Assembly: GCF_910592395.1 (NCBI RefSeq)
Contig: NC_088312.1
Location: 22,451,292-22,515,291 of the forward strand
DNA: 64,000 nucleotides
Source: Lineus longissimus
Lineage: Eukaryota; Nemertea; Pilidiophora; Heteronemertea; Lineidae
Direction: 5' to 3'
The notes below the pieces were generated by a model. The model made no database searches. It saw only the letters and a program-made list of their open reading frames with translations, and was not told where the DNA came from. A program made the translations under genes and the position numbers. Of this stretch, positions 61 through 43,051 are shown piece by piece (the stretch's first letter is position 1; each line of letters opens with the position of its first letter).

Positions 61-372
61 TCACTCCTTATCCATATTAATCAGTCTGTGCCTTTTACAC
101 ACAGACCCATAAGAAAATCTTTTTCCACAGATCTGACATTCATATGGTTTCTCTCCAGTATGAATCCTTTCATGTGTATTCCTATGAACTTTCTGACTAA
201 AGCGTTTTCCGCAGTAAGAACATTGGAATGGTTTTTCACCAGTGTGGACACGAATGTGATATTCTAAAAGCTTATTCGCAGAGAAGTCTTTACCACAAAA
301 GGAACAGGTGTACAATCTCAACTTGGACCGAGTTTCCGCCAGTGAAATCTGCGAAGGTTGCCATATTCGTAT
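61..372 (-). CDS. Gene A alternative terminal exon, 3 C2H2 fingers (leftmost)
   Basis: The acceptor (tatttgcag on the minus strand) lies just above 372, and the exon opens in phase 0 with IRIWQPSQ and ends at its own stop. Three fingers follow a ~25-residue leader. Helix residues (-1 to 6) are ANKLLEY, QKVHRNT and YGSVCKR. The third finger ends H-R-L-I-N, so its second zinc-binding His is Asn and that finger may fold poorly. Inferred role: DNA-binding tail of a gene A isoform, joined to the coiled-coil and linker exons 21 kb upstream. It is the most distal exon seen; the array may continue outside the window. Confidence 0.85.
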   Translation of the reverse strand: MRIWQPSQISLAETRSKLRLYTCSFCGKDFSANKLLEYHIRVHTGEKPFQCSYCGKRFSQKVHRNTHERIHTGEKPYECQICGKRFSYGSVCKRHRLINMDKE

Positions 373-664
373 CTGCAAATAGAAACAGAAATACCTGTTA
401 CTGACCTAAGTTCATGAAACCAACACTTCGCAGATCACAGAAACAATGCCATACAGTTTGCATTTCATCAATGTGGCTTGAGAGAAGATATCAACAAAGA
501 CGTACTCAGAAAAATGAAGATGAACTCTGAAAAACAAAGACAGACTCAGCAATACAGTTAACATAGTGCTTTTTGCAGATCTCTTATCACCTGACAACTG
601 CTAGACACATTTCACCTCAGAGATTATGGGTGTGAGATCATGACACTTGAGAAAAGCCTCTCAA

Positions 665-973
665 TTAGCTTTTAGGCTTCACGTGGACAATCTTATGGCG
701 TTTATACGATGAGCTATCCGAGAATCTTCTACCACAAAGTTGACACGTATATGGTCTTTCTCCAGTATGGATCCTTTCATGGGTCCTCATGCTTGAGCTC
801 TGAGAGAACGCCTTCCCACAGTGGCGACATGTGAATGGTTTGTCCCCAGTGTGGATCCGCAAGTGACGCTCAAGCCCTGTGCGGTCTGGAAAGACCTTTG
901 GACACCAACTACACCTCCTAACATTTATCGCACCCAAAGGACTGTTTACAAAAGACGGCAATGGAGCTGGCAC
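665..973 (-). CDS. Gene A alternative terminal exon, 3 C2H2 fingers
   Basis: The minus-strand acceptor ttgtttcag is followed in phase 0 by VPAPLPSFV. After a short hydrophobic/Pro leader come three complete CX2C-HX3H fingers with canonical TGDKPF and TGERPY linkers. Helices are DRTGLER, QSSSMRT and DSSSYKR. The exon stops shortly after the last His (HVKPKS). The third finger resembles those of gene B exons 34468 and 35967 (DHSSYIR, DHSHIRR), pointing to shared ancestry of the two arrays. Confidence 0.9.
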   Translation of the reverse strand: MPAPLPSFVNSPLGAINVRRCSWCPKVFPDRTGLERHLRIHTGDKPFTCRHCGKAFSQSSSMRTHERIHTGERPYTCQLCGRRFSDSSSYKRHKIVHVKPKS

Positions 974-1000
974 CTGAAACAAAACAGAGCAAAGTGTCAG

Positions 1001-1205
1001 GCCAAGGTCGCAAAATATCAGTAATGGTCAAGGTCACAAGTATTAGTAAAGGTCAAGATCATGAAACATCCGCAGAGTTCAAGGTAAAAAAATATCAGCA
1101 AAGGTCACAAATATCAGTAAAAGTCAAGGTAACAAAATAACAGAAAAGGTCAAGTCACAAACATCAGAAAAGGTCAAGGTCAAATATCAGAAAAGGTCAT
1201 GGTCA
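1001..1205. repeat. Degenerate minisatellite (AAGGTCAAGGTCACAAATATCAG-like)
   Basis: Short imperfect units built from AAGGTCA, TCACAAA and ATCAGTAAAGG repeat across about 200 bp, between array exon 665-973 and the pseudo-exon beside it. AGGTCA is also a nuclear-receptor half site, but the irregular spacing argues for a simple minisatellite. Confidence 0.7.
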
Positions 1206-1233
1206 TCATAACCAACGTAATCTTGATCTTTTT

Positions 1234-1500
1234 GCAATGACAATTTTTCCACAACAATATGGACTTCATGGAGGAAGTATCTTTGAAAGCTCTTCGACAC
1301 ACATGACAAACAAATGGTCTTTCTCCTGTGTGAACTCTTTAATGGCTCTTCACAAGAGCTTCCCGATTGAAGCTTTTCGTACAGCAAGAGCACTTATAAG
1401 GTTTCTCTCTTGTGTGGACCCTCATGTGCCTTTCAAAAGCACTCCTCGCGTTGAAGAATTTAGGACACGACGGATATTGGTGCCTCTCTGAACCGCCCGT
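1234..1500 (-). pseudogene. Decayed gene A zinc-finger exon
   Basis: Read on the minus strand, the order is ERHQYPSCPKFFNARSAFERHMRVH, TREKPYKCSCCTKSFNREALVKSH, a TAA, then RVHTGERPFVCHVCRRAFKDTSS and loss of frame. The first finger lacks its first Cys. A nonsense codon sits where HERVH would normally have Glu. The third finger loses its His pair after a frameshift. A TTACAG acceptor near 1497 would now enter out of frame. It is a former three-finger exon of the same type as its neighbours. Confidence 0.8.
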
Positions 1501-3037: not shown

Positions 3038-3331
3038 TTAGCTGTCGAGGCCGTCCATATGGACGAGCATATGTGTATTCTTGCTTGAGGTATCCTTAAA
3101 CCTTTTCGCGCAGATCGGACATTCATATGGCCTTTCCCCAGTGTGAACACGCTCATGCCTCTTCAAATGACCTTTTTGTCGAAAGCATTTCTCACAGAAA
3201 GAGCACTCGAATGGTTTTTCTCCAGTGTGGATACGCACATGGTTTTCAAGGGCAGAATTAGACCCAAAGAACTTTGGACAACTCTGCCAGGAGCATTTTT
3301 TCCAGAAGAAGTGATTTGATTTGCGAAAGAT
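3038..3331 (-). CDS. Gene A alternative terminal exon, 3 fingers, first with CX4C
   Basis: The acceptor taatttcag precedes IFRKSNHFFW in phase 0. No ATG is present, as expected for an internal acceptor. Finger 1 is C-SWQS-C, with four residues between the cysteines rather than two. Fingers 2 and 3 are canonical. Helices are SNSALEN, QKGHLKR and DTSSKNT. The tail after the last His is HMDGLDS and a stop. The unusual CX4C spacing is still compatible with the C2H2 fold. Confidence 0.85.
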   Translation of the reverse strand: MFRKSNHFFWKKCSWQSCPKFFGSNSALENHVRIHTGEKPFECSFCEKCFRQKGHLKRHERVHTGERPYECPICAKRFKDTSSKNTHMLVHMDGLDS

Positions 3332-3698: not shown

Positions 3699-3998
3699 TT
3701 AATCCAGATGCGTCAGCGCAATATGCACTTTCCTCTTATGCTGATCAGTAAATGATAAGCCACAAACTGCACAAGCAAATGGTTTCTCTCCTGTGTGAAT
3801 CCTTTCATGGCGCAGAAAGTTTCCTTTCTGACTGAAAGCCTTTCCACACACTTTACATTCAAATGGTTTTTCCCCAGTGTGGATACGAAGATGCTTAATC
3901 AAGTCGGCTTTTTGCACGCATAGCTTGCCACAGACCCGACAGGTGAAGACTTTGGGAGGAGTGAAAGACTGGCCTGTAAGGCTGTCCATCCACATTGT
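3699..3998 (-). CDS. Gene A alternative terminal exon, 3 C2H2 fingers
   Basis: The acceptor taatttcag precedes TMWMDSLTGQ in phase 0. Helices are QKADLIK, QKGNFLR and DQHKRKV, and the last finger has HX4H spacing. The exon ends four residues after the final zinc ligand region (THLD). The linkers are TGEKPF twice, the form that favours cooperative DNA binding by adjacent fingers. Confidence 0.9.
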   Translation of the reverse strand, partial: TMWMDSLTGQSFTPPKVFTCRVCGKLCVQKADLIKHLRIHTGEKPFECKVCGKAFSQKGNFLRHERIHTGEKPFACAVCGLSFTDQHKRKVHIALTHLD

Positions 3999-4761: not shown

Positions 4762-5055
4762 TCATTTCATATGAGTCATCATATGAACCTGCATGTTAGC
4801 TTTCCGTGTGAACGCCTTGTCACACAGAGAACATTTGTACTTCCTTTCACCGATATGGAACTCAGTCACGTGCGTCTTTAGATGTGATTGTTGTTTGAAG
4901 CGATTACCACAGTGGGGGCACTTGAATGGTTTTTCACCAGTGTGGATACGCAGATGAGTCTGAAAGGAACTTTTCCACGCAAATACTTTGTCGCAGAAAG
5001 AGCAAACAAAGCAGTTACTGCCATGAGCTGGAAAACCTGCCGACTGAATGAACGC
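4762..5055 (-). CDS. Gene A alternative terminal exon, 3 C2H2 fingers, no internal start
   Basis: The acceptor taatttcag precedes AFIQSAGFPAHGSN in phase 0 and the frame stays open to TGA at 4762-4764. The true frame has no ATG near its start, so it is easily missed; the longer ATG-led frame here is a shadow. Helices are WKSSFQT, QQSHLKT (HX4H) and RKANMQV. The second linker is FHIGERKYKC, longer and divergent, so fingers 2 and 3 may be less tightly coupled. Confidence 0.88.
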   Translation of the reverse strand, partial: AFIQSAGFPAHGSNCFVCSFCDKVFAWKSSFQTHLRIHTGEKPFKCPHCGNRFKQQSHLKTHVTEFHIGERKYKCSLCDKAFTRKANMQVHMMTHMK

Positions 5056-5483: not shown

Positions 5484-6104
<621 letters not shown>

Positions 6105-6315: not shown

Positions 6316-6654
6316 TTACATATTGTACTTGAAGTTCGGTTTCTCATGTGTGTTAAATTCGTGCATCCGTAAGCCCTCTTTCCGCTGGAAAGCTCTGCCG
6401 CAAATGTCACATTTAAATGGCTTTTCTCCTGTGTGGATCCGCTCATGACGTGTCAACGTCCCTTTAAGAGCAAACGTCTTCTCACAGTAAGAACATTTAA
6501 AACCCTGCGACTTCTGTTGAATAGTATAACCTTCGAAAACTTCTCGATTTCCAGGAATTTGGTGAAGTTGTGATAAATCTGAAGCCTTCGGATAAATTTG
6601 CCAGTTACCATGGCGACCACCCGTAGCAGACCATAACCCAGTCATTCCACCGAT
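6316..6654 (-). CDS. Gene A alternative terminal exon, 2 fingers, GMT-W leader
   Basis: The acceptor tattttcag precedes IGGMTGLWSAT in phase 0. The ~60-residue leader is followed by fingers with helices LKGTLTR and RKEGLRM, the second with HX4H. The tail HEKPNFKYNM nearly matches that of exon 9036 ([10 protein letters not shown]), so these two exons are close relatives although three array exons separate them. Confidence 0.9.
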   Translation of the reverse strand: MGGMTGLWSATGGRHGNWQIYPKASDLSQLHQIPGNREVFEGYTIQQKSQGFKCSYCEKTFALKGTLTRHERIHTGEKPFKCDICGRAFQRKEGLRMHEFNTHEKPNFKYNM

Positions 6655-6998: not shown

Positions 6999-7740
<742 letters not shown>

Positions 7741-7844: not shown

Positions 7845-8063
7845 TTAATTAGCGACTCCGACTCGGCTTTGAAGTAGAGTCATCTCAAGACTCCTTGACT
7901 TCTGGAGAAACGTTTTGTCACAAAATGAACATTTGAAAGTCTGACCGATTCTAGGCCGACCTACGTTCCCACTTTCAGGAAAATGGCTGAGAAATTGAAG
8001 AAACCTGAATGTCATTTGATGGTCACAAACGCTTGTAGGCCATACCCTAGACATTCCAGTCAT
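7845..8063 (-). pseudogene. Broken gene A finger exon, one truncated finger
   Basis: The acceptor (tcgtttcag) and phase-0 start MTGMSRVWPT are intact. The only finger begins FKCSFCDKTFLQK, then runs into SRSLEMTLLQSRVGVAN and stops without any zinc-binding His. A deletion after the Cys pair, with a frame change, removed the rest. If spliced it would give an isoform without a working finger. It belongs to the GMT-W subfamily. Confidence 0.8.
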
Positions 8064-8095
8064 CTGAAACGAGATAATAGGAACGACTTAGGGTG
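8044..8095 (-). promoter_or_regulatory. Inverted repeat at 3' splice site of exon 8063, with covariation
   Basis: In the plus-strand view, intronic GGAACGACTTAGGGTG (8080-8095) faces exonic ACCCTAGACATTCC (8044-8057). Relatives have GGGGG/CCCCC at this place. Here both arms carry the complementary AGGG/CCCT form, so pairing is kept although the sequence changed on both sides. Confidence 0.55.
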
Positions 8096-8682: not shown

Positions 8683-9036
8683 TTACATTTTGAACATAAA
8701 GTTGGGTTGCTCGTGAATGCTAAATTTGTGTATCCTTAAGGCCTCACTGCGGCTGAAATCTTTGCCACAAATGTCACATTGATATGGTTTCTCTCCTGTA
8801 TGGATCCTCTCGTGTCGGACAAAATGACCTCGGTGGTTGAACGTCTTTGCACAGTACTGACATTTGTAAATTGTATAATGAACATTCCGGTGCCTTGGAC
8901 CACGACTGCATCTGCGGAGCCAACTGTGACCACCGGTGATGTCCCCAGTTTCAGGAAACATTCTTGGTTCAGGGAATGGCATGCTCTTCTGACAGCCACC
9001 AGCACTTGTAGATTGACCCCCCGACACTCCAAGAAT
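8683..9036 (-). CDS. Gene A alternative terminal exon, 2 C2H2 fingers
   Basis: The acceptor attctttcag precedes [10 protein letters not shown] in phase 0. The ~60-residue leader contains a basic stretch ([13 protein letters not shown]). Helices are HRGHFVR and RSEALRI (HX4H). The first finger is closest to exon 9426 (HRGNFVR), its immediate downstream neighbour, suggesting a recent tandem copy with one changed base-contacting residue at position 3 (H versus N). Confidence 0.9.
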
Positions 9037-9096: not shown

Positions 9097-9426
9097 CTAC
9101 ATGTACATGTTCCTATGAATTGTAATCTTATGTGACTTCAAACTGTCACTCTGATTGAATGCTCTGCCACAAATGTCACATATAAATGGTTTCTCTCCTG
9201 TGTGGATTCTTTCATGACGGACAAAATTTCCTCGGTGGTTGAAGGTCTTTTCACAAAATTGACATTTGTGAATTGAATAAACATTCTGGGGACCGATATC
9301 TGGACCAAGTTTGCCACGGTTACGCCCACGCTTTGTGTCTTTACGAAATATTCCATGCGGACGGCTCGGCATGATCGCCTGATGGTCACCACCGCATGTA
9401 GACCAACCCCCAGTCATGCCAATGAT
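9097..9426 (-). CDS. Gene A alternative terminal exon, 2 fingers, GMT-W leader
   Basis: The acceptor cttctttcag precedes IIGMTGGWST in phase 0. The leader contains a basic segment (GRNRGK). Helices are HRGNFVR and QSDSLKS (HX4H), with tail IHRNMYM. The tail resembles that of exon 10110 (VHRIVFM). The upstream frame stays open through the acceptor, which explains a longer ATG-led frame; the splice site is the better start. Confidence 0.9.
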   Translation of the reverse strand: MIGMTGGWSTCGGDHQAIMPSRPHGIFRKDTKRGRNRGKLGPDIGPQNVYSIHKCQFCEKTFNHRGNFVRHERIHTGEKPFICDICGRAFNQSDSLKSHKITIHRNMYM

Positions 9427-9807: not shown

Positions 9808-10110
9808 CTACATGAACACAATCCTATGAACCGCAATCTTATGCGACTTCAAACTGCCGCTCTGGTTGAAAGCTTTGCCACAAATGTCACATATAAATGG
9901 TTTCTCTCCCGTGTGAATCCTTTCGTGACGAACCACGTGTCCCTTCTGGGTGAATGTCTTTTCACAAAACCGACACTTGAGTGATGATAACTCTACTCCT
10001 AAGTTCCCAGAGTGCCCCAGCGATAAACCAAATGGCAGATGTTGCGAGGATTTTCGATATGTCAGAGTTTCACCAAGATTGGGAGACCACACCCCCGTCA
10101 TTCCGGGCAT
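9808..10110 (-). CDS. Gene A alternative terminal exon, 2 fingers, GMT-W leader
   Basis: The acceptor cttttacag precedes [10 protein letters not shown] in phase 0; the ATG is the first codon of the exon but need not be a start. Helices are QKGHVVR and QSGSLKS (HX4H). The leader of ~45 residues is rich in Ser and Gly. First-finger residues differ from its relatives mainly at helix positions 3 and 6. Confidence 0.9.
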
Positions 10111-10316: not shown

Positions 10317-10643
10317 CTACAGTGGTAATGAATGGCTGGTCATGTGACCATTCAAATGCGCCTTCTGCTCAAACTCCTCGCCACAGATTTCGCATCTGAA
10401 CCTCTTTGGCGCCTCCTGGTGGAGACGCATGTGAACTTTCATGTTCCATTTCAACGAGAAATGCTTCCCACACTCCGGGCAGACAAACTGGCCTGTATGG
10501 CTGACCATGTGTCGCCGGTGCGAGTTGCGACTGTACGATATCGCGTTGCAAATCTTGCATGTGATCATTTCAGTTTGGGGCATGTCCAGACCTGCCCAGT
10601 TGCCGAGTCCTCTTGCAGACATCAGTCCAAGTGCATGTGAGGG
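10317..10643 (-). CDS. Gene A alternative terminal exon, 3 C2H2 fingers
   Basis: The acceptor tatcttctag (TAG rather than CAG) precedes PSHALGLMSARG in phase 0. The three fingers differ from the local subfamily: helices are SRNSHRR, LKWNMKV and QKAHLNG, finger 1 has ISYS in place of the usual KxFx, and linkers are HTGQFVC and HQEAPKRFRC. The divergent linkers and fingers mark an older array member. Confidence 0.85.
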   Translation of the reverse strand, partial: PSHALGLMSARGLGNWAGLDMPQTEMITCKICNAISYSRNSHRRHMVSHTGQFVCPECGKHFSLKWNMKVHMRLHQEAPKRFRCEICGEEFEQKAHLNGHMTSHSLPL

Positions 10644-11288: not shown

Positions 11289-11591
11289 TCAGAAAGCATC
11301 ATCTGGACTTTGTAACTGCAGGTTTCTTGTGCCATCTTGGCACTTCCGCACCCTCATCAAGTGCACCAGAAGATTCTGTTTCTGGGTGAATCTCATTCCA
11401 CATTTCGTACAACCAAATGGCTTCTCGTTTAAATGAGTTCCTTTAAAATGCCGCCGCAGATTAGACTTATCCGAGAAGGAGCGCTGACAGACCGAGCATT
11501 GGTGGGGTTTAGGTCCTTGCAGTTGGGTTGGATTCGCTATGTTCCCCGCCCTTGGGAAAGTCATGGTATAACTGTGCGGTTGCCATGGAAA
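11289..11591 (-). CDS. Gene A alternative terminal exon, 1 good and 1 variant finger
   Basis: The acceptor tttcttgcag precedes FPWQPHSYTM in phase 0. Finger 1 is a sound CX2C-HX4H unit with helix DKSNLRR. Finger 2 (helix QKQNLLV) has its first His but then reads LMRVRKC, so the last ligand could only be a Cys at unusual spacing. A ~24-residue tail rich in Gln and Asp follows. Either the finger is C2HC-like or it is decaying. Confidence 0.8.
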   Translation of the reverse strand, partial: FPWQPHSYTMTFPRAGNIANPTQLQGPKPHQCSVCQRSFSDKSNLRRHFKGTHLNEKPFGCTKCGMRFTQKQNLLVHLMRVRKCQDGTRNLQLQSPDDAF

Positions 11592-12062: not shown

Positions 12063-12263
<201 letters not shown>

Positions 12264-12678: not shown

Positions 12679-12957
12679 TTAGATTTTTCCTTCCAGTAAG
12701 TTATGTCTATGCAGCAGTTCATGCATCTGAAGACTACGCTTTGAGGAAAGATTCTTTCCACAAACGGAACAAGAGAAAGACCGCTTCTCTCCTGTATGGG
12801 TCAATTTATGTTGCACCAGAGTGTGTTTGCGTGTGAAGGACTTGCCACAGATTGGACAAGTCCATGGCCGGATTCCGGTATGTCGCCGCATGTGAACCGT
12901 CAAGTTGCCAGCGTTGGAAAGGTAGGCACTGCAAAGGAGACACTTGTGCGGAGTCAC
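12679..12957 (-). CDS. Gene A alternative terminal exon, 3 C2H2 fingers
   Basis: The acceptor gtcattccag precedes VTPHKCLLCSAYL in phase 0, with almost no leader. Helices are NAGNLTV, RKHTLVQ and SKRSLQM. The TGIRPW linker and the overall form match exon 12239, but this exon has an extra finger. The tail is RHNLLEGKI. Confidence 0.9.
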   Translation of the reverse strand: MTPHKCLLCSAYLSNAGNLTVHMRRHTGIRPWTCPICGKSFTRKHTLVQHKLTHTGEKRSFSCSVCGKNLSSKRSLQMHELLHRHNLLEGKI

Positions 12958-13891: not shown

Positions 13892-14173
13892 CTATTTCAT
13901 CCAATTTGCATGTCCGACCCCGTGATACTCCAGACGGAGCCGTGATGCAAATCCCTTTCCGCAGAGATCACAGATGAACGGCTTAATGTTCATGTGGGTA
14001 GCCATATGGGCTGATAATGAGCTTTTCTGATTAAACGCTGATCCGCAAGTCTTGCATTTAAATGGTTTCTCTCCAGTATGAATGCGTAGGTGGACTTTCA
14101 AGTTCCAGGCATTTGCGAAGGTTTTCTTGCAAACATGACATATCGGGTTGTCCCTGTCGTGTCTTTGAAACTG
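13892..14173 (-). CDS. Gene A alternative terminal exon, 3 C2H2 fingers
   Basis: The acceptor is TTTTACAGCAG, a tandem NAG-NAG site, so the exon may start at 14173 or 14170 and gain or lose one Gln while staying in phase 0. The protein starts [15 protein letters not shown]. Helices are NAWNLKV, QKSSLSA and SRLRLEY. The second linker is MNIKPF. Gene B exon 33077 is its clear relative ([21 protein letters not shown]), a cross-array pair. Confidence 0.87.
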
Positions 14174-14774: not shown

Positions 14775-15080
14775 TCACGTCTTTCCATGAACACATCGCA
14801 CATGCCTCCGGAAATTCGACTTGTCACTAAACGCAGATTTGCAAAGTTGACATTGAAATGGTTTTTCTCCTGTGTGGATCCTCATATGCGCTTTCAAAGC
14901 TGAATGATACGCGAAGACTTTCGAGCAGAAATGACAGCAAACGACCCTTGTCTCAATATTTGGAATCTGGTCATTAGGACCTCGAGGAAACGTTTCTTGG
15001 ATCGCTTGCAGTTGCTCCACTATAGATGATGCCAATAGGGGGTGTATCCTTGCGTCACTGCCAGATGTTGGGAACTTCGA
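14775..15080 (-). CDS. Gene A alternative terminal exon, 2 C2H2 fingers
   Basis: The acceptor gtcttccag precedes SKFPTSGSDAR in phase 0. A ~45-residue leader precedes fingers with helices YHSALKA and DKSNFRR (second with HX4H, ending VHGKT). The leader is predicted to be mixed helix/loop with Gln and Ile-rich parts and resembles no other exon here. Confidence 0.88.
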   Translation of the reverse strand, partial: SKFPTSGSDARIHPLLASSIVEQLQAIQETFPRGPNDQIPNIETRVVCCHFCSKVFAYHSALKAHMRIHTGEKPFQCQLCKSAFSDKSNFRRHVRCVHGKT

Positions 15081-16103: not shown

Positions 16104-16634
16104 TTAGTCAATTTCAATGACATCTGAGCGAATTTTCTGCGGAGTTGCTGTTGCACCCTCTGGCGTTGGAGTAATGGTCCTGCACGTTGGCTTCTGAGGT
16201 GTAGCGGAACCATCCAACTCCTGGGGAGTTCCTGTACTGCATCTACGCTTCAGTGAAGTTCGAGTAGCCTTGTCACACTTCAGCGGAGTGCCGGTTCCAT
16301 TGTGTTTCTTGCACACACTGTTCTCGACATGATTTTTCATGCCTTTTTTGGAAACGAAGCCCTTCCCACAATCATCGCATTGAAACGGCTTGTCCATACC
16401 AGTCTCATGGCACAAAAAGTGATTCTTCAACAGCTGATTGTTTGCAAACCTGCGGTCACAAATCTGGCAGATGAATGATTTAAGCTTTGTTGGGGTTTTT
16501 GACCTGCTGATACCGTGGGTCAACAGGTGGACGTTAAGGGCCTCCTTGGCGGCAAAGATCTGCTCACAAACAGGACACAACCAGTTTTTCTTGGCAGGGG
16601 AGCTTGTCTCTCGAGACACAACTGGTGTTGGGCT
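16104..16634 (-). CDS. Gene A first alternative terminal exon: 3 fingers plus TP-rich tail
   Basis: The acceptor gtcttgcag precedes SPTPVVSRETSS in phase 0. This is the array exon nearest the shared exons and the longest of gene A (176 residues). Helices are AKEALNV, NNQLLKN and SKKGMKN, the last finger with wide His spacing (HVENSVCKKH, where a Cys could also serve). A ~65-residue Thr/Pro-rich tail follows, with repeated TPQ/TPLK/TPTP segments, which are possible proline-directed phosphorylation sites. It ends SDVIEID, which resembles the SUMO-binding core VIEI of exon 2. It is unlike all other tails and may be the ancestral or default tail. Confidence 0.9.
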   Translation of the reverse strand, partial: SPTPVVSRETSSPAKKNWLCPVCEQIFAAKEALNVHLLTHGISRSKTPTKLKSFICQICDRRFANNQLLKNHFLCHETGMDKPFQCDDCGKGFVSKKGMKNHVENSVCKKHNGTGTPLKCDKATRTSLKRRCSTGTPQELDGSATPQKPTCRTITPTPEGATATPQKIRSDVIEID

Positions 16635-26073: not shown

Positions 26074-26814
26074 ATGATGAAGGACAGCACAATGTCGGTT
26101 GCAGACACAGAAGATTTCATTCCAACTCAGGAGTCGAGCCCTACTGATGATGAACATGAAGAACAAGAAGAAGAAGAAGAAGAAGAGACTGAGGACAGCC
26201 CGTTTGTCAACATGCAAACGGAGCTTCACTGTAAAGGTGCTGTGCTCACAAGGGCATGGTCAGACTTGTTTAGTTTCATCACAAAATATCAAGCTGAACT
26301 GGTGGTGAAAGAAAATTCTGTTGAAATAGCGGAGAAAGAAATCAAAGAGCGAAAGAGACAATTGGAAGAAATGAAACCAGTGGTTGACGCTGGTAACGAA
26401 GAGGTTTCTAAATTACAAGATGAGATTCGAACAAAAGAAAGACTTCTTAGCAAAGCACAATCACAACTTTCTGTCAAGGAGAGAATGTTGCAACGGGTAC
26501 AATCAGACTTGTCTGGTAATATGGAAATGTTAGAAAAATCTCGAAGTGAACTTTTAAGTAAGCAAAATGACGTTATTCGATATAGAGGTGATTTAGAACG
26601 TCTGAGATCAGAATTGACAATATCGCGAGAACAAATTCAAATCAAAGATAATCTACTTAAAAAGCTACAAAATCAACTCATGAAGGAGAATTTAGAGTTA
26701 AAGGAACAGTTGGAGCTGGAACGACGATCCCATGAATTGGAGAAACGGTCACATGAATTGACAAAAAGGAGTATGATGTCACAGATGCAGAATGAAAATT
26801 ATAGGAAAAGACCG
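26074..26814 (+). CDS. Gene B shared exon 1: coiled-coil N-terminus
   Basis: An acceptor (tttctatttcag) at 26003-26014 opens the exon; translation starts at ATG 26074 (MMKDSTMSVADTEDF). It ends AGACCG|GTAAGT in phase 0 after 247 residues. Against gene A it differs by two extra Glu codons in the acidic run, one N-to-D change, one added Tyr codon near the end and almost nothing else, even at third positions over several hundred bases. Upstream of the ATG and downstream of the donor the two copies cannot be aligned. Same inferred role: shared oligomerisation half of all gene B isoforms. Confidence 0.92.
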
Positions 26815-27028: not shown

Positions 27029-27643
27029 AGAACTGGTCCTTCTCCTGCTGCTGTGATTGAAATCCCCGACTCGCCTCCCACACTTGACCTCTCCAATGAA
27101 CATGATTTCGGATTGTCGAACATCATCTCGATGACTGAATCGCAATCGACAGAACAAGACTCTTATTCTCAGAGAAGATTTGCCAGCCCCTCACCGTCTT
27201 TTAGTGATACCTCCAGCCGATTGCATCACCTTCCTCCCTCTGATGCTTCGTCTCAAGTTGGTTTTACAACTCCTCAAAAAGCTGCACCTTCACCTTCCAA
27301 GTATCTTGTGTCACCGTCTATGACTCCACCGAGAACTATGTCAAGTATTAGTGAACACGTCTCTCAAAGAGATACTGCCATGACATCTAGTGATACGTTT
27401 TTCCCCCTCAGTGTTTCTGCTTCAGAGGACTTGAAACCTGACATTGACAGTTTACAATATATGGACAGTGACACTAGTAATCAAGGGCCTGTGCCAATAT
27501 CTGGCCCAATGCCTGTGATAAAACCTGGGACTCCCAGTTCAGGGACAAGTGATAGTAGTCAAGGCCCAGTGCCGGTATCGGGGCCGATTCCTAGTTCAGC
27601 AGGGATGTCACCAGGTGGCAGCATGGAAGGCGGAGATGGAAAG
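27029..27643 (+). CDS. Gene B shared exon 2: Ser/Pro-rich linker with SUMO-interaction-like motif
   Basis: The acceptor ttcctatttcag and donor GGAAAG|GTAGGG delimit 615 nt, the same length as in gene A. The protein differs from A at about one residue (EQDSYSQ versus EQDTYSQ). Base differences are a few silent changes (e.g. CTTGAC/CTCGAC). Similarity continues ~50 bp into the following intron and then stops. Without splicing the reading frame ends after IDFDKILIFEVTAVL, giving a possible finger-less isoform. Confidence 0.9.
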
Positions 27644-32312: not shown

Positions 32313-32648
32313 ATGGTTTACTCACACCAAGAAAGCCTCTGGCACTTGCGTAGAAGTCAAACGATAAAAACGCCGTACCAATGCGACGAATGTGAAAAGT
32401 ATCTTTCGTCGGGGACGGCACTGAAAAGGCACTTCCGAATTCACACAGGGGAGCGCCCCTTTAAGTGTGGCTGGTGCGGCCAGGGATTCACTTATAAAAA
32501 TGTCTTAAAAGCTCATGAGAGGATGCATACAGGAGAAAAGCCATATGTTTGTAAAGAATGCGGAAAATCTTACACGCAGATGAACTCGCTGCAGCAGCAT
32601 ATGATAAGTGTTCATCGAACTCGTGTACCCTCCCAGAGGTCTTTCTAA
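32313..32648 (+). CDS. Gene B first alternative terminal exon, 3 C2H2 fingers
   Basis: The acceptor atatttttcag precedes MVYSHQESLW in phase 0. Helices are SGTALKR, YKNVLKA and QMNSLQQ (last finger HX4H), with linkers TGERPF and TGEKPY. The tail is RTRVPSQRSF. An AATAAA at 32842-32847, ~195 nt past the stop and before the next acceptor, could end this transcript form. Confidence 0.92.
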   Translation: MVYSHQESLWHLRRSQTIKTPYQCDECEKYLSSGTALKRHFRIHTGERPFKCGWCGQGFTYKNVLKAHERMHTGEKPYVCKECGKSYTQMNSLQQHMISVHRTRVPSQRSF

Positions 32649-33076: not shown

Positions 33077-33367
33077 CCATGGCGGCGTTGGCCGTGCAAA
33101 CGACCCCGGAATTGTGACATTTGTGGGAAAACGTTTGCGACGGCGGGGACTTTGAAAGTCCACCTTCGGCATCATACTGGAGAAAAGCCATTCAAATGCG
33201 AGACGTGTGGACTCGGCTTCGTCCAGAAAATCTCGTTGAAAGCTCACATGAGAGCTCACGCGACGCCGGTTTTGCCATATTCTTGCGATATCTGCGGAAA
33301 AGCATTTCAGACTGAACTGCGACGGGATTATCACAAGCTTGGCGATCATGACGATTCTTCGAAATAG
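33077..33367 (+). CDS. Gene B alternative terminal exon, 3 C2H2 fingers
   Basis: The acceptor cttttacag precedes [12 protein letters not shown] in phase 0, a strongly basic leader. Helices are [14 protein letters not shown] and TELRRDY. The second linker, ATPVLPYSC, is non-canonical. It is the counterpart of gene A exon 14173. Just after the stop, RTRSHLKAHA can be read as a scrap of another finger. Confidence 0.88.
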
Positions 33368-33576: not shown

Positions 33577-33867
33577 ATGTCTCATTTTAACCAACTATTC
33601 ACTGGGAATTGTCTGAAACCTTTCAAGTGCTCAATCTGTAGTAAATCATTCACCAAGAAATCGCATCTAGACGCGCATCTCAGGTCCCATACTGGGGAAA
33701 AACCATTCAAGTGCAGGTTCTGTGGGCGTGGCTTCACTCAGAAGGGCCACGCTAACATACATGAGAGGATTCATACAGGAGAGAAACCATATGATTGTAA
33801 AGTTTGTGGGAGGAACTTTTCCAATAAGTCAAATCGAGATGTGCATTTGGGTTTACACAACAATTGA
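33577..33867 (+). CDS. Gene B alternative terminal exon, 3 C2H2 fingers
   Basis: The acceptor tctaatttcag precedes MSHFNQLFTG in phase 0. Helices are KKSHLDA, QKGHANI and NKSNRDV. Both linkers are TGEKP. It ends LHNN. Intron distance to the next exon is only ~170 bp, the compact spacing typical of this part of the array. Confidence 0.92.
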   Translation: MSHFNQLFTGNCLKPFKCSICSKSFTKKSHLDAHLRSHTGEKPFKCRFCGRGFTQKGHANIHERIHTGEKPYDCKVCGRNFSNKSNRDVHLGLHNN

Positions 33868-34038: not shown

Positions 34039-34341
34039 ATTCCTGGTCAGCTATTTGGACATGGGAATCGTCCAAAATGTCACATTTGCGGTAAATTGTT
34101 CAAGACAAAAGGGAGATTAGAGGACCATGTTCGTATCCACACTGGTGATAGGCCATTCAAATGTTCTTACTGTGGACGAGGCTTCTCGCAGAAAGGTTCT
34201 GTCAAAGTTCATGAAAGGATTCACACAGGAGAGAAACCATATGACTGTCATATTTGTGGGAAGACGTTCTCTGTCCGCTCAAACAGAAATGCTCATCTTA
34301 GTCTTCACCTTGGACAAGATAGGACCTTTTATCAGTCATGA
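34039..34341 (+). CDS. Gene B alternative terminal exon, 3 C2H2 fingers
   Basis: The acceptor tctaatttcag, inside a conserved 26-nt upstream motif, precedes IPGQLFGHGNRP in phase 0. Helices are TKGRLED, QKGSVKV and VRSNRNA; linkers are TGDRPF and TGEKPY. The third finger is close to those of exons 39401 and 40809 (DSSNRNA, DASNRNA). The ORF begins upstream of any ATG, as expected for an internal exon. Confidence 0.92.
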   Translation: MPGQLFGHGNRPKCHICGKLFKTKGRLEDHVRIHTGDRPFKCSYCGRGFSQKGSVKVHERIHTGEKPYDCHICGKTFSVRSNRNAHLSLHLGQDRTFYQS

Positions 34342-34467: not shown

Positions 34468-34773
34468 ATATCTCGGTATTGCCGGCCTCCTGGTTTGCAT
34501 GCAGGGTGGAGCTCACCACTGAAGCCTCTGACATGTCCTTACTGTAACAAGTCCTTCCAGTTGAAAAGTTCCCTCAAAATTCATCTTCGGATGCACGCTG
34601 GTGAAAAAATATTCAGCTGTTCGTATTGTGGCAAGGGCTTTGCTACGAAAGGAAACTTGAAAACTCATGAGCGTATTCATACAGGAGAAAAACCATATCA
34701 GTGCCAAATTTGTGGGAAAAGATTCAGTGATCATTCGTCGTATATCAGACATAGAGTGGTCCACATGAAATGA
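34468..34773 (+). CDS. Gene B alternative terminal exon, 3 C2H2 fingers
   Basis: The acceptor tatttgcag precedes [11 protein letters not shown] in phase 0. Helices are LKSSLKI, TKGNLKT and DHSSYIR. The first linker is HAGEKIFSC rather than TGEKPF. The tail is VVHMK. The upstream frame is open into the intron, but the conserved acceptor sets the start. Confidence 0.9.
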
Positions 34774-34926: not shown

Positions 34927-35229
34927 GTGTCCCGGTGGAGCATTACTCTGGGTTCCAGGAATCCGTCGTTATCATTGATGAACTCTTACTCTGTTAAGCC
35001 ATTCAACTCAGCAGGTCTTGGAGGACATATTCGGCCTCATGCTGTTGGAAAGCCTTTTAAGTGTTCGTTCTGTGGTAAAGCCTTCAGTAGGAAGCAGCAT
35101 GTTGAAACTCATGAGCGTATTCACACAGGAGAGAAACCATACGAATGTCCTGTTTGTAAGAAGAGATTTTCTGATATTTCGGGGTTGAGGCAGCATAAAA
35201 CGGTTCATTTGAATGTTCAGAGCACATAG
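34927..35229 (+). CDS. Gene B alternative terminal exon, 2 fingers plus a ghost finger
   Basis: The acceptor tctactttcag precedes VSRWSITLGSR in phase 0. Where other exons carry finger 1, this one reads VKPFNSAGLGGHIRPHAVGK: the His side survives but the Cys pair is gone. Fingers 2 and 3 are sound, with helices RKQHVET and DISGLRQ. It is open to the stop and probably functional with two fingers, an intermediate stage of exon decay or trimming. Confidence 0.85.
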   Translation: MSRWSITLGSRNPSLSLMNSYSVKPFNSAGLGGHIRPHAVGKPFKCSFCGKAFSRKQHVETHERIHTGEKPYECPVCKKRFSDISGLRQHKTVHLNVQST

Positions 35230-35966: not shown

Positions 35967-36260
35967 TTGTCTGACAAGCACCGCCCGTGTGGGGGCCTCC
36001 AGGCTAAGACATGTTCATTCTGTAACAAGGTTTTTGGCACGAGAACTCTTCTCAATGTTCACACCCGAATCCACACTGGTGAAAAACCATATAAATGTTC
36101 TTACTGTGGGAAGGCTTTCAAACAGATGGGTCACGTGAAAGTCCATGAAAGAATCCACACAGGAGAGAAACCATTTGCTTGTGACATTTGTGGGAAACGG
36201 TTTAGTGATCATTCTCATATCAGAAGACATAAAATATGTCATCTGAATGTTCAACGTTGA
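35967..36260 (+). CDS. Gene B alternative terminal exon, 3 C2H2 fingers
   Basis: The acceptor tctatttgcag precedes LSDKHRPCGGLQ in phase 0. Helices are TRTLLNV, QMGHVKV and DHSHIRR. It is the tandem sister of exon 36341: the same KTCSFCNK start of finger 1, the same finger 2 scaffold, and the same ATGGG(T/C)CTCC phrase upstream of the acceptor. The helix contacts of fingers 1 and 3 differ. Confidence 0.92.
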   Translation: MSDKHRPCGGLQAKTCSFCNKVFGTRTLLNVHTRIHTGEKPYKCSYCGKAFKQMGHVKVHERIHTGEKPFACDICGKRFSDHSHIRRHKICHLNVQR

Positions 36261-36340: not shown

Positions 36341-36637
36341 GTGCCACGCAGCCGTAAACCTCACCTGGCACGTGACTCCAAGACTTGCTCATTCTGTAAC
36401 AAGACGTTCACCTCAAAAAGCACACTCGATGCTCACATCCGCCTCCACACTGGTGAAAAGCCTTATAAGTGCTCTTACTGTGGCAAGGCCTACAGTCAGA
36501 TGGCTCACGTGAAAGTCCATGAAAGAGTCCACACAGGAGAGAAACCATTTGCTTGTAACATTTGTGGGAAACGGTTTTCTGTCAAGTCAAGCATGGCTGC
36601 CCACCTTACGACACACCTGAGGGAGATCCCTAAATAA
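36341..36637 (+). CDS. Gene B alternative terminal exon, 3 C2H2 fingers
   Basis: The acceptor tctatttgcag precedes VPRSRKPHLARD in phase 0. Helices are SKSTLDA, QMAHVKV and VKSSMAA. Compared with its sister exon 35967, finger 2 changes only G to A in the helix whereas finger 3 is replaced at most contact positions. The stop codon overlaps an AATAAA hexamer (36633-36638), probably by chance. Confidence 0.92.
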   Translation: MPRSRKPHLARDSKTCSFCNKTFTSKSTLDAHIRLHTGEKPYKCSYCGKAYSQMAHVKVHERVHTGEKPFACNICGKRFSVKSSMAAHLTTHLREIPK

Positions 36638-36686: not shown

Positions 36687-36986
36687 ATTCCTGGACTTGA
36701 TTATCAGGGTTCAGCTGTCACCAGTAACATTCATGCCTGTCAAATCTGTGGTAAACTCTGCCAAAAACGAAGCACACTTGAAGCTCATCTCAGGATCCAC
36801 ACTGGTGAAAGACCCTTCAAGTGTTCTTATTGTGGGAAAGGGTTTAGTCGAAAAGATCCAGTGCAGCGGCATGAGCGAATCCACACAGGAGAAAAACCAT
36901 ATAGATGTGACATTTGTGGCAAAGCATTCAACCAAAGTTGCAGCTTGAAAGCACATAAGGTTGTGCATTTCAAGCGGAGACATTAG
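36687..36986 (+). CDS. Gene B alternative terminal exon, 3 fingers, no internal start
   Basis: The acceptor ttctactttcag precedes IPGLDYQGSAV in phase 0 and the frame is open to TAG at 36984-36986. ATG-led frames here are in the wrong register. Helices are KRSTLEA, RKDPVQR (a Pro inside the helix, unusual) and QSCSLKA. The last finger and its KVVHFK tail match gene A exon 5801. Confidence 0.9.
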   Translation: MPGLDYQGSAVTSNIHACQICGKLCQKRSTLEAHLRIHTGERPFKCSYCGKGFSRKDPVQRHERIHTGEKPYRCDICGKAFNQSCSLKAHKVVHFKRRH

Positions 36987-37373: not shown

Positions 37374-37670
37374 ATTCGTTCATTATCAGGTCGGGATGAA
37401 ACCGCTTGGTGTCCTTCTGATTGTCACATTTGTGGCAAACGGTTTGCCTCGAAAGCACATGTAGAAATGCACCTTCGTATCCACACTGGTGAAAAGCCAT
37501 TCAAGTGTTCCTACTGCGGAAAAGCTTTCAATCAGAAAGGACACGTAACACTCCATGAAAGGGTCCATACAGGAGAGAAACCATACAGATGTGACATTTG
37601 TAACAAGGCATTCAAGCAGAGTGGAACTTTGAAGTCACATCGGTTTGTCCATCTGAAACCTCAATTCTAG
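37374..37670 (+). CDS. Gene B alternative terminal exon, 3 C2H2 fingers
   Basis: The acceptor tctaatttcag, within the conserved upstream motif, precedes [12 protein letters not shown] in phase 0. Helices are SKAHVEM, QKGHVTL and QSGTLKS. The third finger parallels the QSGSLKS fingers of gene A exons 7328 and 10110. It ends HLKPQF. Confidence 0.92.
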
Positions 37671-37761: not shown

Positions 37762-37820
37762 TACAGCCTGGTGAAAAATTGTTCAGTTTTTCTTTCTGTG
37801 GAAAGAGTTTTCGAATGTAG
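37762..37820 (+). pseudogene. Relic finger fragment
   Basis: One frame gives AGEKLFSFSFCGKSFRM and a stop, i.e. the linker and Cys side of a finger (the first Cys already Phe). Only ~60 bp remain. Confidence 0.45.
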
Positions 37821-38079: not shown

Positions 38080-38382
38080 ATCCAAGAACCTCTTGATGTT
38101 TGGCTTGCAAGCAATTCTCCGCGATTTAAGTTCCATTCTTGTTCTATCTGCAAGAAAGTCTTGCCGTCGAACGACGCACTCAAATCACACATGCGTATCC
38201 ACACTGGTGAAAAACCTTTCAAGTGCTCTTACTGTGGCAAAGACTTCAGGCAGAAACCTCATGTCATGAGGCATGAGAGGATTCACACGGGAGAGAAACC
38301 ATATAAATGTGACATTTGTGGAAAGGCTTTCTCTGATCCTTCCCACTTTAGGAAACACAGGATTTCTCATTTGGTTTCCTGA
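38080..38382 (+). CDS. Gene B alternative terminal exon, 3 C2H2 fingers
   Basis: The acceptor tctactttcag precedes IQEPLDVWLAS in phase 0; the open frame extends upstream into the intron. Helices are SNDALKS, QKPHVMR (a Pro within the helix) and DPSHFRK. Linkers are TGEKPF and TGEKPY. The tail after the last His is LVS. Confidence 0.9.
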   Translation: MQEPLDVWLASNSPRFKFHSCSICKKVLPSNDALKSHMRIHTGEKPFKCSYCGKDFRQKPHVMRHERIHTGEKPYKCDICGKAFSDPSHFRKHRISHLVS

Positions 38383-38389
38383 GCAACTG

Positions 38390-38524
38390 CCATGTGCTCA
38401 AGTGCTGGTAGTGCGGGAAAGCTTTTGCTCAGAAAACCTTGAAACTCACGAAAGGATTTATACAGAAGAGAAACCATTTGGATATCTGGCTTGTGGGCAG
38501 AGGTTTTCTGCTGGTGCTGTATGA
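38390..38524 (+). pseudogene. Relic of a two-finger segment
   Basis: Directly behind exon 38080, a frame reads ENLETHERIYTEEKPFGYLACGQRFSAGAV and stops. It preserves HER-I-(H) and EEKPF plus half a finger with its first Cys lost. Upstream bases still spell CGKAFAQK in another frame. No stop-free route remains. Confidence 0.65.
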
Positions 38525-38792: not shown

Positions 38793-39083
38793 ATGCGGGT
38801 TCCTTGGTTGCTTTCTCGTCAGAGCGGTGGTGCTGGTCCTGAAGTTTGCGCTGTTTGTAAGAAACTCTGTCCCTCCAAAGCTCACTTGAGAAGACACATG
38901 CGTATCCACACTGGTGAAAAACCATTCAAGTGTTCTTGCTGTGGAAAGGCCTTCTCGCAGAAAGGAACATTGAAAACTCATGAAAAGATTCATACGAGAG
39001 AAAAACCATATGTTTGCCGGATCTGCGGGAAGTCATTCACAACCAGTTTTCAAATAGATGTGCATCTAAAACTACATATGTAA
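38793..39083 (+). CDS. Gene B alternative terminal exon, 3 C2H2 fingers
   Basis: The acceptor tctactttcag precedes MRVPWLLSRQ in phase 0. Helices are SKAHLRR, QKGTLKT and TSFQIDV. The second linker is HTREKPY, with Arg replacing Gly, which may weaken coupling of fingers 2 and 3. Finger 1 has Cys after KL (KKLCPSK), like exons 36687 and 40809. Confidence 0.92.
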   Translation: MRVPWLLSRQSGGAGPEVCAVCKKLCPSKAHLRRHMRIHTGEKPFKCSCCGKAFSQKGTLKTHEKIHTREKPYVCRICGKSFTTSFQIDVHLKLHM

Positions 39084-39373
39084 CTCATAAGTAGTTTGAC
39101 GGACAAAAAGCCTCTCCTTGCACGTTGATGGTGTCTCAGTATCAGTCTCTATCAAAATGTCTTTGAAAACATTAGGACTTATTTTTTTCGCAAAACAACC
39201 CCCTGCGAAAAATCTCGTATGAAACTCTTTATATGCCTTGCAGTGTCAATGTAAATTCTTTTTCTACACTTACTACACTAGGAATTCTGGCTTTCAGGGT
39301 TTTATTGTCTTCCTGCATTTTGCTGGTAATTCGTAATTTTAACAAAACCCATCAATTCAAATCCTACCATTAA

Positions 39374-39700
<327 letters not shown>

Positions 39701-39828
39701 TCATGTCAACAGCTACATGAACTTTTCTGTTATTTTCAGGCGACGTGATGACATTTTGTTCTTAGAACGTCAAATGTCTTGCTCCCTTCGTCCTCCTGGC
39801 TCATGGCTGTTCCTTTGTCTACTTTCAG

Positions 39829-40110
39829 GCGTTTTGGTTGTCCTCTGGTCAGCATTTTGAGTGCCGCGTTTGCGGAAAACTGTTTCCCTCAAAGGCAGAG
39901 ATAGGACGGCACATGCGTATCCACACTGGTGAAAAACCGTTCAAATGTTCCTATTGCGAAAAATGCTTTAGTCAGAGTGGCAACTTGAAGAAGCATGTCC
40001 GCATCCATACCGGAGAGAAACCATTTCAGTGTCCTGTTTGTGGGAAGGGGTTCAGTGATAGTTCACATAGGAAGACACATATGATTAGTCACATTGTGCC
40101 TAGGGTGTAG
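39829..40110 (+). CDS. Gene B alternative terminal exon, 3 C2H2 fingers
   Basis: The acceptor tctactttcag, within the conserved upstream motif, precedes AFWLSSGQHFEC in phase 0, a minimal leader. Helices are SKAEIGR, QSGNLKK and DSSHRKT. It ends IVPRV. The following sequence is a relic exon split by a SINE. Confidence 0.92.
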   Translation, partial: AFWLSSGQHFECRVCGKLFPSKAEIGRHMRIHTGEKPFKCSYCEKCFSQSGNLKKHVRIHTGEKPFQCPVCGKGFSDSSHRKTHMISHIVPRV

Positions 40111-40119
40111 GTGGATAAG

Positions 40120-40676: not shown

Positions 40677-40808
40677 AATGCTGGCTTTTCTGTCATTTTC
40701 AGAACATTAGACGACCGTTGGGTCTTGAACATAAATTTTCTTGATCCTTTGTGGTTGTAGGTCTTCTAAGCATTGTTAGTTCATGGTTGTTCCTTTGTCT
40801 ACTTTCAG

Positions 40809-41198
40809 AGATGTGGGTTATCTTCTCGTCCTAGAGGTGGCTGTAAGCGCGGTAGCAATGATCCTTTGAAGTGTACTGTATGTGGTAAAGCCTGTTCTTC
40901 CAAGGCTAAAATGGACCTTCACGTGCGTGTCCACGCTCATCTGATATGTGCTGTGTGTGGCCAACTCTGTACAACCAAGACCAGAATGGGCAGGCACATG
41001 CGTATCCACACTGGTGAAAAGCCATTCAAGTGTTCGTACTGTGGGAAAGCCTTCAGTCTGAAAGGCAACTTGACCATCCATGAACGAATTCACACAGGAG
41101 AGAAACCATTCAGCTGTCTGATTTGTGGAAAGATGTTCTCGGACGCTTCGAATAGAAATGCTCACTTGGCGAATCATATTAAGCCAAATTGGCAATAG
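40809..41198 (+). CDS. Gene B alternative terminal exon, 4 C2H2 fingers
   Basis: The acceptor tctactttcag, in the conserved upstream motif, precedes RCGLSSRPRGG in phase 0. Helices are SKAKMDL, TKTRMGR, LKGNLTI and DASNRNA. Fingers 1 and 2 are joined by a very short HAHLIC link and look like an internal duplication of one finger. Fingers 3 and 4 match the usual second and third fingers of the array. Confidence 0.92.
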   Translation, partial: RCGLSSRPRGGCKRGSNDPLKCTVCGKACSSKAKMDLHVRVHAHLICAVCGQLCTTKTRMGRHMRIHTGEKPFKCSYCGKAFSLKGNLTIHERIHTGEKPFSCLICGKMFSDASNRNAHLANHIKPNWQ

Positions 41199-41563
41199 CA
41201 ATTGAATCGGTGTCTTGATTATGGTGGTGGATTTCTGAAATCTGTAAACTACTGTAAATTCTCATTTTTGATTGCCAACATGTAGGTCTAATGATTTTTC
41301 CTTCTGTGGCTTGTTAAATATTCTAGGTGGTCAGTTCAGTATTCGAAGTATTTCGCTGCAATTTCAGAAACTTCATGCTTAGTTTCAGTTTCTATGTATA
41401 TCAGACTTTGTCAGCCAGCTTTACAGTTTGTATGTTTATCCAACATTTTCAGGCATTTATATACGTCTATCCAGCATTTTCAGATCTATATACTTTTACA
41501 GTTTTCAAAATTCATCTCCTTCTGTTGGTAGCAAACTCATTGAATCTTATTGTATAATTTCAG

Positions 41564-41974
41564 GGAGACCAAAGTTGTGACATGACTCTCCCTGACTTGA
41601 ACTACCAACCTGGCCCCGTTCGTGGTGTTCAGCGGTCAATGGGCTGCCCGTTCTGCCCAAAACGATTCCCCAGCAAGTACAAGTTGAAAACGCACATTCG
41701 AATCCACAGCGGAGAGAAGCCATTTGTATGCAGTTACTGCGATAAAGGCTTTAACCAGAATAGTAATCTGAAGAAACACATCCGTGTCCACACTGGCGAG
41801 AAACCATACGATTGTTTAGAATGTGGGAAATCATTCAAAGATGGCTCCCATCTGCGCACGCATATGATGAGACATCAAATTGAGAAGATGGGCCTATCGC
41901 AGTGTCCTGTTTGTAGGAAGATGTTTGAGAATGATACCGCCTTGCATAATCATATCACCTTGGAGCATACTTAA
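41564..41974 (+). CDS. Gene B alternative terminal exon, 4 C2H2 fingers
   Basis: The acceptor ataatttcag precedes GDQSCDMTLPD in phase 0. Helices are SKYKLKT, QNSNLKK, DGSHLRT and NDTALHN. Finger 4 is separated by an eight-residue non-canonical link (QIEKMGLS) and may act apart from the first three. It ends LEHT. Confidence 0.92.
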   Translation, partial: GDQSCDMTLPDLNYQPGPVRGVQRSMGCPFCPKRFPSKYKLKTHIRIHSGEKPFVCSYCDKGFNQNSNLKKHIRVHTGEKPYDCLECGKSFKDGSHLRTHMMRHQIEKMGLSQCPVCRKMFENDTALHNHITLEHT

Positions 41975-42724
41975 GACATGGTTGACTATTGTGAGATTAT
42001 AGAATGCTGCATATCGTTGATAAGTCCCTTGTCTTGACCTCCGATTGGTACTGAGACGAATTATCTTCAGGCATATTTTGGTGTTCATTTCTAGTAGTTT
42101 TTCAGCTGGGTTTTGATTTGATACATCTAGTATCTGACCGTCCCAGTTTCTTCACCTTCTGGATCCAATCATAATGTGGTCTCTTGCACAAGTTATCATA
42201 TTCATAGTGAATTGGAACTAGTCGAGTTCTTGACATTATGTCATCTGAGTTTTTGATAGATGTCCAACTGGAGTTGTCAGTTTTGTTAATTGGCTGGTTT
42301 AGTCCATTCCTCATTAAAATCTTGGCTGGAGAAGTATTGTCCATAGAATGTCTTATCCTTTCTGTGTTCTTACAAAAGCATTCAGACCTTCCTGAGGCGA
42401 GAGAGCTGTTCACTACCTCGTCACCCCTTTTGCTTGTACTGTTGGAGGGCGTTCAGTCTGACAGGTCAACATGTCGGTTTTCAGGGTAATACCTAGTGGG
42501 TCTCATGAATCAAATGAAACGGACTCTAGTCCACAAGTCTATTGTTTGTTTCTCTGTTTTCTTGTATTATTTCCTAATTTCAGCGTCGATTATGAGTTTT
42601 CTGAAAGACCAAATCTTGGTGACCTGTTTAATTTCAGATTCTGTGCTTCATAATCATGTTTCTTTTAAATCAGTCGTAAGATTATTGATTCTAATATCTT
42701 GTGTCAAACTTTCTATAATTTCAG

Positions 42725-43051
42725 CTCTGTTACCCGTTCCTCCCCACCTCACAGACTCGAGTTGGTAAGGATTATTCCTGTAAAATTTGTACTGACGTAT
42801 TTGTAAGCCAAGCATGCTTAGACGTGCATGAACAAATCCACTCTGCCACTAGGCCATTTCAGTGTCCATTTTGTAAGAAGACCTTCAGTGCAAAAAGCAA
42901 TATGAATGTACACATGAGGCTCCACACAGATATCCGACCTTTTCAATGTGTGGAGTGTGGCAAGAGGTTTAACAGGAGCACTCATTTGAAGACTCATATG
43001 TTTACTCATTTGAAAGTAGGCAACAAACAGAAATTTGGCAACCCATTCTGA
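42725..43051 (+). CDS. Gene B last alternative terminal exon, 3 C2H2 fingers
   Basis: The acceptor ctataatttcag precedes LCYPFLPTSQTR in phase 0. Helices are SQACLDV, AKSNMNV and RSTHLKT; linkers SATRPF and TDIRPF are non-canonical, as in gene A exons 12239 and 12957. The ~1-kb 3' region ends in a good AATAAA (44118). It is the most distal exon of gene B. Confidence 0.9.
   Translation, partial: LCYPFLPTSQTRVGKDYSCKICTDVFVSQACLDVHEQIHSATRPFQCPFCKKTFSAKSNMNVHMRLHTDIRPFQCVECGKRFNRSTHLKTHMFTHLKVGNKQKFGNPF

Follow-up and report, generated by a model that had tools for sequence, protein, structure and literature searches.

Shared coiled-coil heads with arrays of zinc-finger terminal exons in the nemertean Lineus longissimus suggest a lola-like system of alternative 3′ splicing multiplied along a chromosome

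How might one gene come by dozens of DNA-binding specificities when only its last exon is free to vary? The question is raised by a 64,000-nucleotide (nt) stretch of the Lineus longissimus genome (contig NC_088312.1, hereafter C5, positions 22451292–22515291; referred to as the window), for which a sequence-only reading had described two arrays of alternative zinc-finger tails, in genes A and B, each behind a coiled-coil “head”, and further tails in a gene C. Analysis of the window, and of the 391 Mb genome (30 contigs) in which it lies, extends that description to four heads in the window (A on the minus strand; B, C and D on the plus strand), to an array in gene A that runs past position 1, to at least three decayed tails and to at least 44 head places in the genome. 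Judging from this anatomy, we consider it about 85% probable that these genes use alternative 3′ splicing in cis after the manner of Drosophila lola, on an unrelated head, and that the arrangement has been multiplied along the chromosome.

The four window heads are built alike, each from two coding exons that meet at a phase-0 junction, with a phase-0 donor at the end of the second (AAG/GTAGGG in both A and B, the shared exons ending in phase 0 as the sequence-only reading had held). Exon 1 encodes a coiled coil of 215–247 amino acids (aa), predicted to form two long helices (residues 43–100 and 109–244; four sequences, predicted local distance difference test (pLDDT) 82, predicted template-modelling score (pTM) 0.44). 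Exon 2 encodes a low-complexity segment in which the islands VIEIPDSPPTLDL, FGLSNI, SDTFFPLSV and GMSP are invariant across the four genes, and which carries VIEIPDSPP, SUMO-like as a sequence pattern only. Genes B and C both have an in-frame stop immediately 5′ of the ATG and an acceptor-like site further upstream, making a noncoding 5′ exon likely in each. The start of the intron after the exon-2 donors (21872, 27643, 52594 and 61993) is also alike in the four genes (GTAGGRATC..TTTT), with a similarity that extends ~50–60 nt among A, B and C; it may take part in splicing control.

All eight window head exons remained below the Pfam cut-offs, and Rfam gave no match at gathering scores. The families listed for 23 exon-1 sequences at an expectation value (E) of 0.01 were scattered coiled-coil types, the best of them (ATG16, E 1.1e-5) appearing for 2 of the 23, and matches of the head in the PDB were coiled coils at E 0.0014 or worse. 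BTB was found neither in the eight window head exons nor among the families listed for the 23 exon-1 sequences; the same holds for KRAB and SCAN, sought in the eight exons at E 1 and in the 23-sequence family lists at E 0.01. BTB matches number 89 genome-wide, C5 having them only at 309828 and 310669, and none lies near any head place.

Behind heads A and B stand 35 intact terminal finger exons, hereafter modules (18 in A, from 16634 to 61; 17 in B, from 32313 to 43051). In every one the frame stays open between a phase-0 acceptor and a single stop, with a median length of 100 aa (range 58–176); number and phase are as originally proposed. Gene C has four modules, and the first is indeed split by a phase-2 intron. 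When the best acceptor was sought in the 250 nt 5′ of the first finger by a fixed scoring that ignored frames and stops, it proved to be in phase 0 in 36/39 window modules (one third expected) and to be the assigned site in 33/39. Assigned acceptors reach a mean score of 19.5; the 3,526 YAG sites on the two window strands average 9.0, and only 1.36% of them score at the assigned-acceptor median or above.

Since any open reading frame automatically ends at its own stop, the distance between last finger and stop was tested separately. In 148 of 165 frames (37/39 in the window, 111/126 in the outside loci described below) the last finger and the stop are no more than 20 aa apart, the median distance being 5 aa in the window and 7 aa in the outside loci. 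Donor-like sites, defined by a match of at least 6/8 (the level of the exon-2 donors), are fewer between last finger and stop than in shuffles (17/165 vs 27), and one of the 17, scoring 7/8 in the window, fits the real internal donor of module C01. Strong donors 3′ of the stop number 0/39 in the window and 3/160 with the outside loci included, compared with 6.3 in shuffles. Stops so close to the last finger, with no excess of donors, indicate that the modules are terminal exons, each closed by its own stop as had been claimed.

Positions −1, 2, 3 and 6 are the DNA-recognition positions of C2H2 fingers, and the strings of these contact residues differ in all 39 window modules, with 104 distinct quartets among 112 single fingers. 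The sequence-only reading had expected about 20 DNA-binding specificities per gene; the distinct contact residues bear this out in kind, but the number is too low for gene A. Its array continues outside the window with 13 more frames (in the adjoining stretch, L029) and then five rows on the strand of A, among which there is no other minus-strand head, giving at least 36 modules.

The same anatomy is met again along the chromosome. A genome search with exon 1 of B returned 46 rows which, with one broken pair merged and a 29-residue match on C1 set aside, correspond to at least 44 head places (head counts from this query are lower bounds), 43 of them on C5, including one weak 61-residue match, and one on C11. 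Exon 2 of B gave 24 rows, or 23 merged places, each located just 3′ of a head exon 1 and on the same strand (23/23). We sampled 27 stretches of 10 kb, which take in 22 additional genes together with outer parts of A and D (24 gene stretches) and contain 125 frames with at least two fingers; all 125 lie on the strand of their head, their contact strings are distinct in 125/125, and the best acceptor, here sought within the open frame only, unlike in the window test, is in phase 0 in 119. With A–D included, at least two modules are present in the stretch examined in 21 of the 26 sampled genes, and the C11 copy has eight. This recurrence in the sampled paralogues means that the arrangement belongs to the family and not to a single locus; extrapolated from the 164 modules counted in the 26 partly sampled genes, the whole family would hold several hundred.

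Gene 649k (L009, C5:649300–659299) has, within the 10 kb examined, a head and behind it a lone exon that encodes a long linker and five fingers, and may plausibly represent a single-tail, ancestral form. Gene 22384k was considered as a fused head, with a frame open through intron 1, and rejected as having merely an open intron. Module B08, used as a genome query (150 of 1,713 candidates scored), has its best 42 matches all on C5; among the matches listed, 60 of 62 C5 rows lie in frames no longer than 210 aa, and all rows off C5 lie in frames of at least 267 aa. Long poly-finger frames of ~670–1400 aa, a contrast to the modules, are grouped at C14:13.26–13.34 Mb and at C8:10.4 and 12.1 Mb.

We propose that each head gene would be transcribed from its own 5′ end into a long pre-mRNA, in which two constitutive coding exons, one for the long coiled coil and one for the low-complexity segment with VIEIPDSPP, would end at a phase-0 donor. 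This donor would be spliced in cis to a single acceptor out of the many that lie downstream, every one of which opens a terminal exon with usually two to four C2H2 fingers and a stop, and one gene would in this way supply a set of regulators with a common pairing or partner surface and different DNA targets. Tandem duplication would make new tails, some of which decay. Splicing itself, one tail per protein, dimerization through the coiled coil, SUMO binding, DNA binding and the pairing of A with B products are what we infer from the sequence.

Are the many tails in use? Fourfold-site identity between modules is near chance (0.285 vs 0.254), and the core Phe is kept in 79 of 91 A/B fingers. Phe was not a criterion for finding fingers; they were found by their zinc ligands, so that fixed ligands would be circular as evidence of constraint. 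With silent sites near saturation and the core Phe kept, the finger scaffolds are old and under constraint. In the module tree, whose bootstrap had not settled, A03 joins B02 (98/96), both being near the heads, and A08–A13 form a group (99/99) that speaks for array growth within A, while the decayed modules (at least three in the arrays) imply that modules are born and die. Positive selection at the contact residues was considered: among finger pairs chosen for low divergence, contact positions show roughly twice the rate of change of other positions, but silent sites are near saturation and these pairs are not true recent duplicates, and the figure was left unused. One might suppose from the decayed modules, and from the reduced modules A05 and A06, that few modules per gene are used and that most are silent duplicates awaiting decay. 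We regard this as unlikely, given 35 intact modules against three decayed ones found in A and B, and core residues retained though silent sites are near saturation.

The strand of the modules bears on how head and tail would be joined. Modules could be transcribed from promoters of their own and joined by trans-splicing to a separately made head RNA, and there is a precedent: at Drosophila mod(mdg4) all mRNAs are reported to arise by trans-splicing of exons that have separate promoters, and lola is reported to trans-splice as well (PMC12692577). Some gaps between A/B modules, the longest 2064 nt, could house promoters; the median gap is 409 nt (n=33), however, and others are as short as 49 nt, with some of 49–80 nt, which leaves little promoter room. 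Trans-splicing needs no common strand, yet the head's strand is used by 39/39 window modules and by 125/125 outside frames, an agreement that favours splicing in cis and makes the trans alternative improbable. Separate small zinc-finger genes beside the head genes are a much poorer account still: tandem finger genes are common, and this genome has its groups of poly-finger frames on C14 and C8, but 73 of 163 frames (22/38 in the window, 51/125 in the outside loci) lack a Met upstream of the first detected finger and therefore cannot begin at an ATG of their own, and the uniform phase-0 acceptor and the strand agreement with the heads also speak against it. It is scarcely credible that the modules are spliced one after another into a single long poly-finger protein: C01 shows that an intron can interrupt a module, but in 148/165 frames no more than 20 aa separate the last finger from the stop, and donor-like sites in that interval are below shuffles.

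Several observations weigh against alternative 3′ splicing in cis. AATAAA or ATTAAA occurs within 300 nt after the stop in 42 of 160 flanks vs 43.1 in shuffles; AATAAA alone is found in 32, compared with 22.7 (standard deviation 4.4) in shuffles, but also in 34 on the antisense strand of those flanks; and a canonical poly(A) signal is absent from 18 of 33 A/B gaps. Docking–selector pairing, with the 54 nt after the exon-2 donor tried as docking site, was not found (mean z −0.13; 2/39 below −2). Exon 2, queried with that of B, is recognised at only 23 of 44 head places, so the second exon has diverged or is absent at the other 21. Two of the 26 sampled genes have no finger exon in the stretch examined and three have one. 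Finally, 6/125 best acceptors in the outside stretches are not in phase 0.

The off-phase acceptors fall into two groups. Three are all the modules of gene 6735k (L022, C5:6726000–6735999), the only such gene sampled, and share one and the same phase, as one shared donor predicts for modules of a gene; of the other three, two have a phase-0 site within 2 points and one is weak. Since exon 2 of 6735k ends in phase 0, an extra linker exon would be needed, and we infer one there, a search for a phase-converting exon having given a single 41-nt candidate (L022 6619–6579). As to the 3′ ends, AATAAA density in module flanks is about twice that of the head-to-array introns and GU-rich hexamers peak 150–200 nt past the stop; either weak signals are used, or the chosen module is trailed by its neighbours as 3′ untranslated region.

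The heads have a history of their own. In a tree of 28 heads, neighbours along the chromosome tend to cluster. Heads A and B are separated by 2.5 kb in a head-to-head arrangement, of which C5 has six cases within 6 kb. Their exons are 98% identical (synonymous divergence, dS, 0.036 and 0.050), whereas an alignment of the two first introns (320 and 214 nt) scores 23, no better than chance (shuffled maximum 24), and the similarity in intron 2 is confined to seven collinear mirror-image patches of 69–88% identity (17319–21461, 28001–30931). Introns this unalike between near-identical exons are not what a recent duplication leaves, which argues that the exons of this inverted pair have probably been homogenized by conversion limited to them, introns and tails having diverged; such homogenization would keep the pairing surface the same for 53 or more A/B tails. 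The intron-2 patches could be remnants of duplication or conserved elements. The head-to-head pair at 9.2 Mb is not homogenized (dS 0.34 and 0.90), and homogenization as in A/B is therefore no rule for such pairs.

How does this arrangement compare with known systems? Fruitless, broad and tramtrack likewise combine a shared domain with alternative 3′ exons that encode fingers; their tails are few and their heads BTB. Mod(mdg4), with FLYWCH tails and modules on both strands, has a BTB head too, and BTB is absent from the heads here. Vertebrate KRAB zinc-finger clusters have likewise grown in tandem, their C2H2 DNA readers differ in contact residues and there is a possible SUMO link, but they duplicate whole genes with one long finger exon each; in the present genes the head is retained and it is the short finger exons behind it that multiply (A/B median 100 aa; 17 in B, at least 36 in A). 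Outside insect BTB genes such as lola and mod(mdg4), we know of no shared head that carries alternative finger tails.

The likeness to lola is one of anatomy: common 5′ coding exons, one donor and many C2H2 3′ exons of fixed phase. The sequence-testable parts of the claim that lola-like logic operates here on an unrelated coiled-coil head all held, namely the shared phase-0 donor, same-strand phase-0 terminal exons, no BTB and no Pfam cut-off reached. The shared part of lola holds a BTB domain and that of the present genes a coiled coil; the present genes also differ in having usually two to four fingers per tail, at least 36 tails in gene A and at least 44 head places per genome. Lola has a common 5′ part with at least 20 alternative 3′ ends, 17 of them with one or two fingers, and different DNA targets, and heterodimerization is reported from two-hybrid tests (PMC5127561). 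More than 30 isoforms of mod(mdg4), with alternative 3′ exons on constitutive exons, are reported (PMC12692577); its 3′ exons are separately promoted, whereas every sampled module here is on the strand of its head. Dscam and the clustered protocadherins likewise set arrayed alternative exons on constant parts (PMC4835542), but they are cell-surface proteins with variable internal or 5′ exons, and the docking–selector pairing was not found in the arrays here.

Table 1. Head exons and finger modules of genes A–D, in window coordinates.
Feature	Position	Strand	Remark
Gene A head exon 1	22807..23538	-	coiled coil; phase-0 end
Gene A head exon 2	21872..22486	-	VIEIPDSPPTLDL, SDTFFPLSV, GMSP; phase 0 to 0
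Gene B head exon 1	26074..26814	+	
Gene B head exon 2	27029..27643	+	donor after 27643
Gene C head exon 1	51199..51882	+	
Gene C head exon 2	52040..52594	+	
Gene D head exon 1	60407..61051	+	
Gene D head exon 2	61388..61993	+	same-strand finger frames start beyond window (L030)
A01	16104..16634	-	
A02	14775..15080	-	
A03	13892..14173	-	tree sister of B02
A04	12679..12957	-	
A05	12063..12239	-	short, 58 aa
A06	11289..11591	-	atypical second finger
A07	10317..10643	-	
A08	9808..10110	-	
A09	9097..9426	-	
A10	8683..9036	-	
Decayed module	7890..8095	-	approximate limits; acceptor kept, broken off within first finger
A11	6999..7328	-	
A12	6316..6654	-	
A13	5484..5801	-	
A14	4762..5055	-	
A15	3699..3998	-	
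A16	3038..3331	-	
Decayed module	1230..1500	-	approximate limits; stop between fingers
A17	665..973	-	
A18	61..372	-	array goes on outside window (L029)
B01	32313..32648	+	
B02	33077..33367	+	tree sister of A03
B03	33577..33867	+	
B04	34039..34341	+	
B05	34468..34773	+	
B06	34927..35229	+	
B07	35967..36260	+	
B08	36341..36637	+	next acceptor 49 nt on
B09	36687..36986	+	
B10	37374..37670	+	
B11	38080..38382	+	
Decayed module fragment	38398..38508	+	
B12	38793..39083	+	
B13	39401..39700	+	
B14	39829..40110	+	
B15	40809..41198	+	4 fingers
B16	41564..41974	+	4 fingers
B17	42725..43051	+	
C01 first exon	53599..53939	+	phase-2 end
C01 second exon	54405..54744	+	
C03	55369..55668	+	
C04	57017..58078	+	8 fingers
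C05	58258..58572	+	

Outside these exons the window contains a large inverted repeat (46943–49329), foldback-element-like, with arms of ~0.9 kb that are 91% identical and further internal copies. Minisatellite arrays lie at 45237–46647, 44759–45041, 31035–31895 and 49629–49977 (the largest with ~20 copies of 68 bp), and dispersed repeats ~84% identical pair 40185–40406 with 58701–58920 and 43150–43331 with 63417–63597. An open reading frame at 7361–7669, in which Pfam found nothing over cut-off, resembles the end of a non-LTR retrotransposon reverse transcriptase.

We found no description of such a head or array in the open-licence literature, which is weak evidence of novelty. A broader picture can be put forward tentatively, as a possibility we hold to be rather less than even: a chromosome-wide combinatorial regulator system of ~44 paralogous coiled-coil heads, most with tail arrays, in which at least one neighbouring pair of heads is kept alike by exon-limited conversion while the tails diversify, so that pairing across genes might read very many DNA sites and perhaps recruit SUMO-dependent silencing as a fast-evolving system of genome defence or identity. 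If lola-like splicing in cis does operate in these genes, a BTB-free system of the same logic would be a separate invention, on a scale (dozens of tails per gene and dozens of genes, nearly all on one chromosome) undescribed in the open-licence literature found. Transcription-factor specificities would then have been multiplied via exon duplication and not gene duplication, and the paralogous arrays would offer a natural set in which to study how one donor picks among tens of acceptors.

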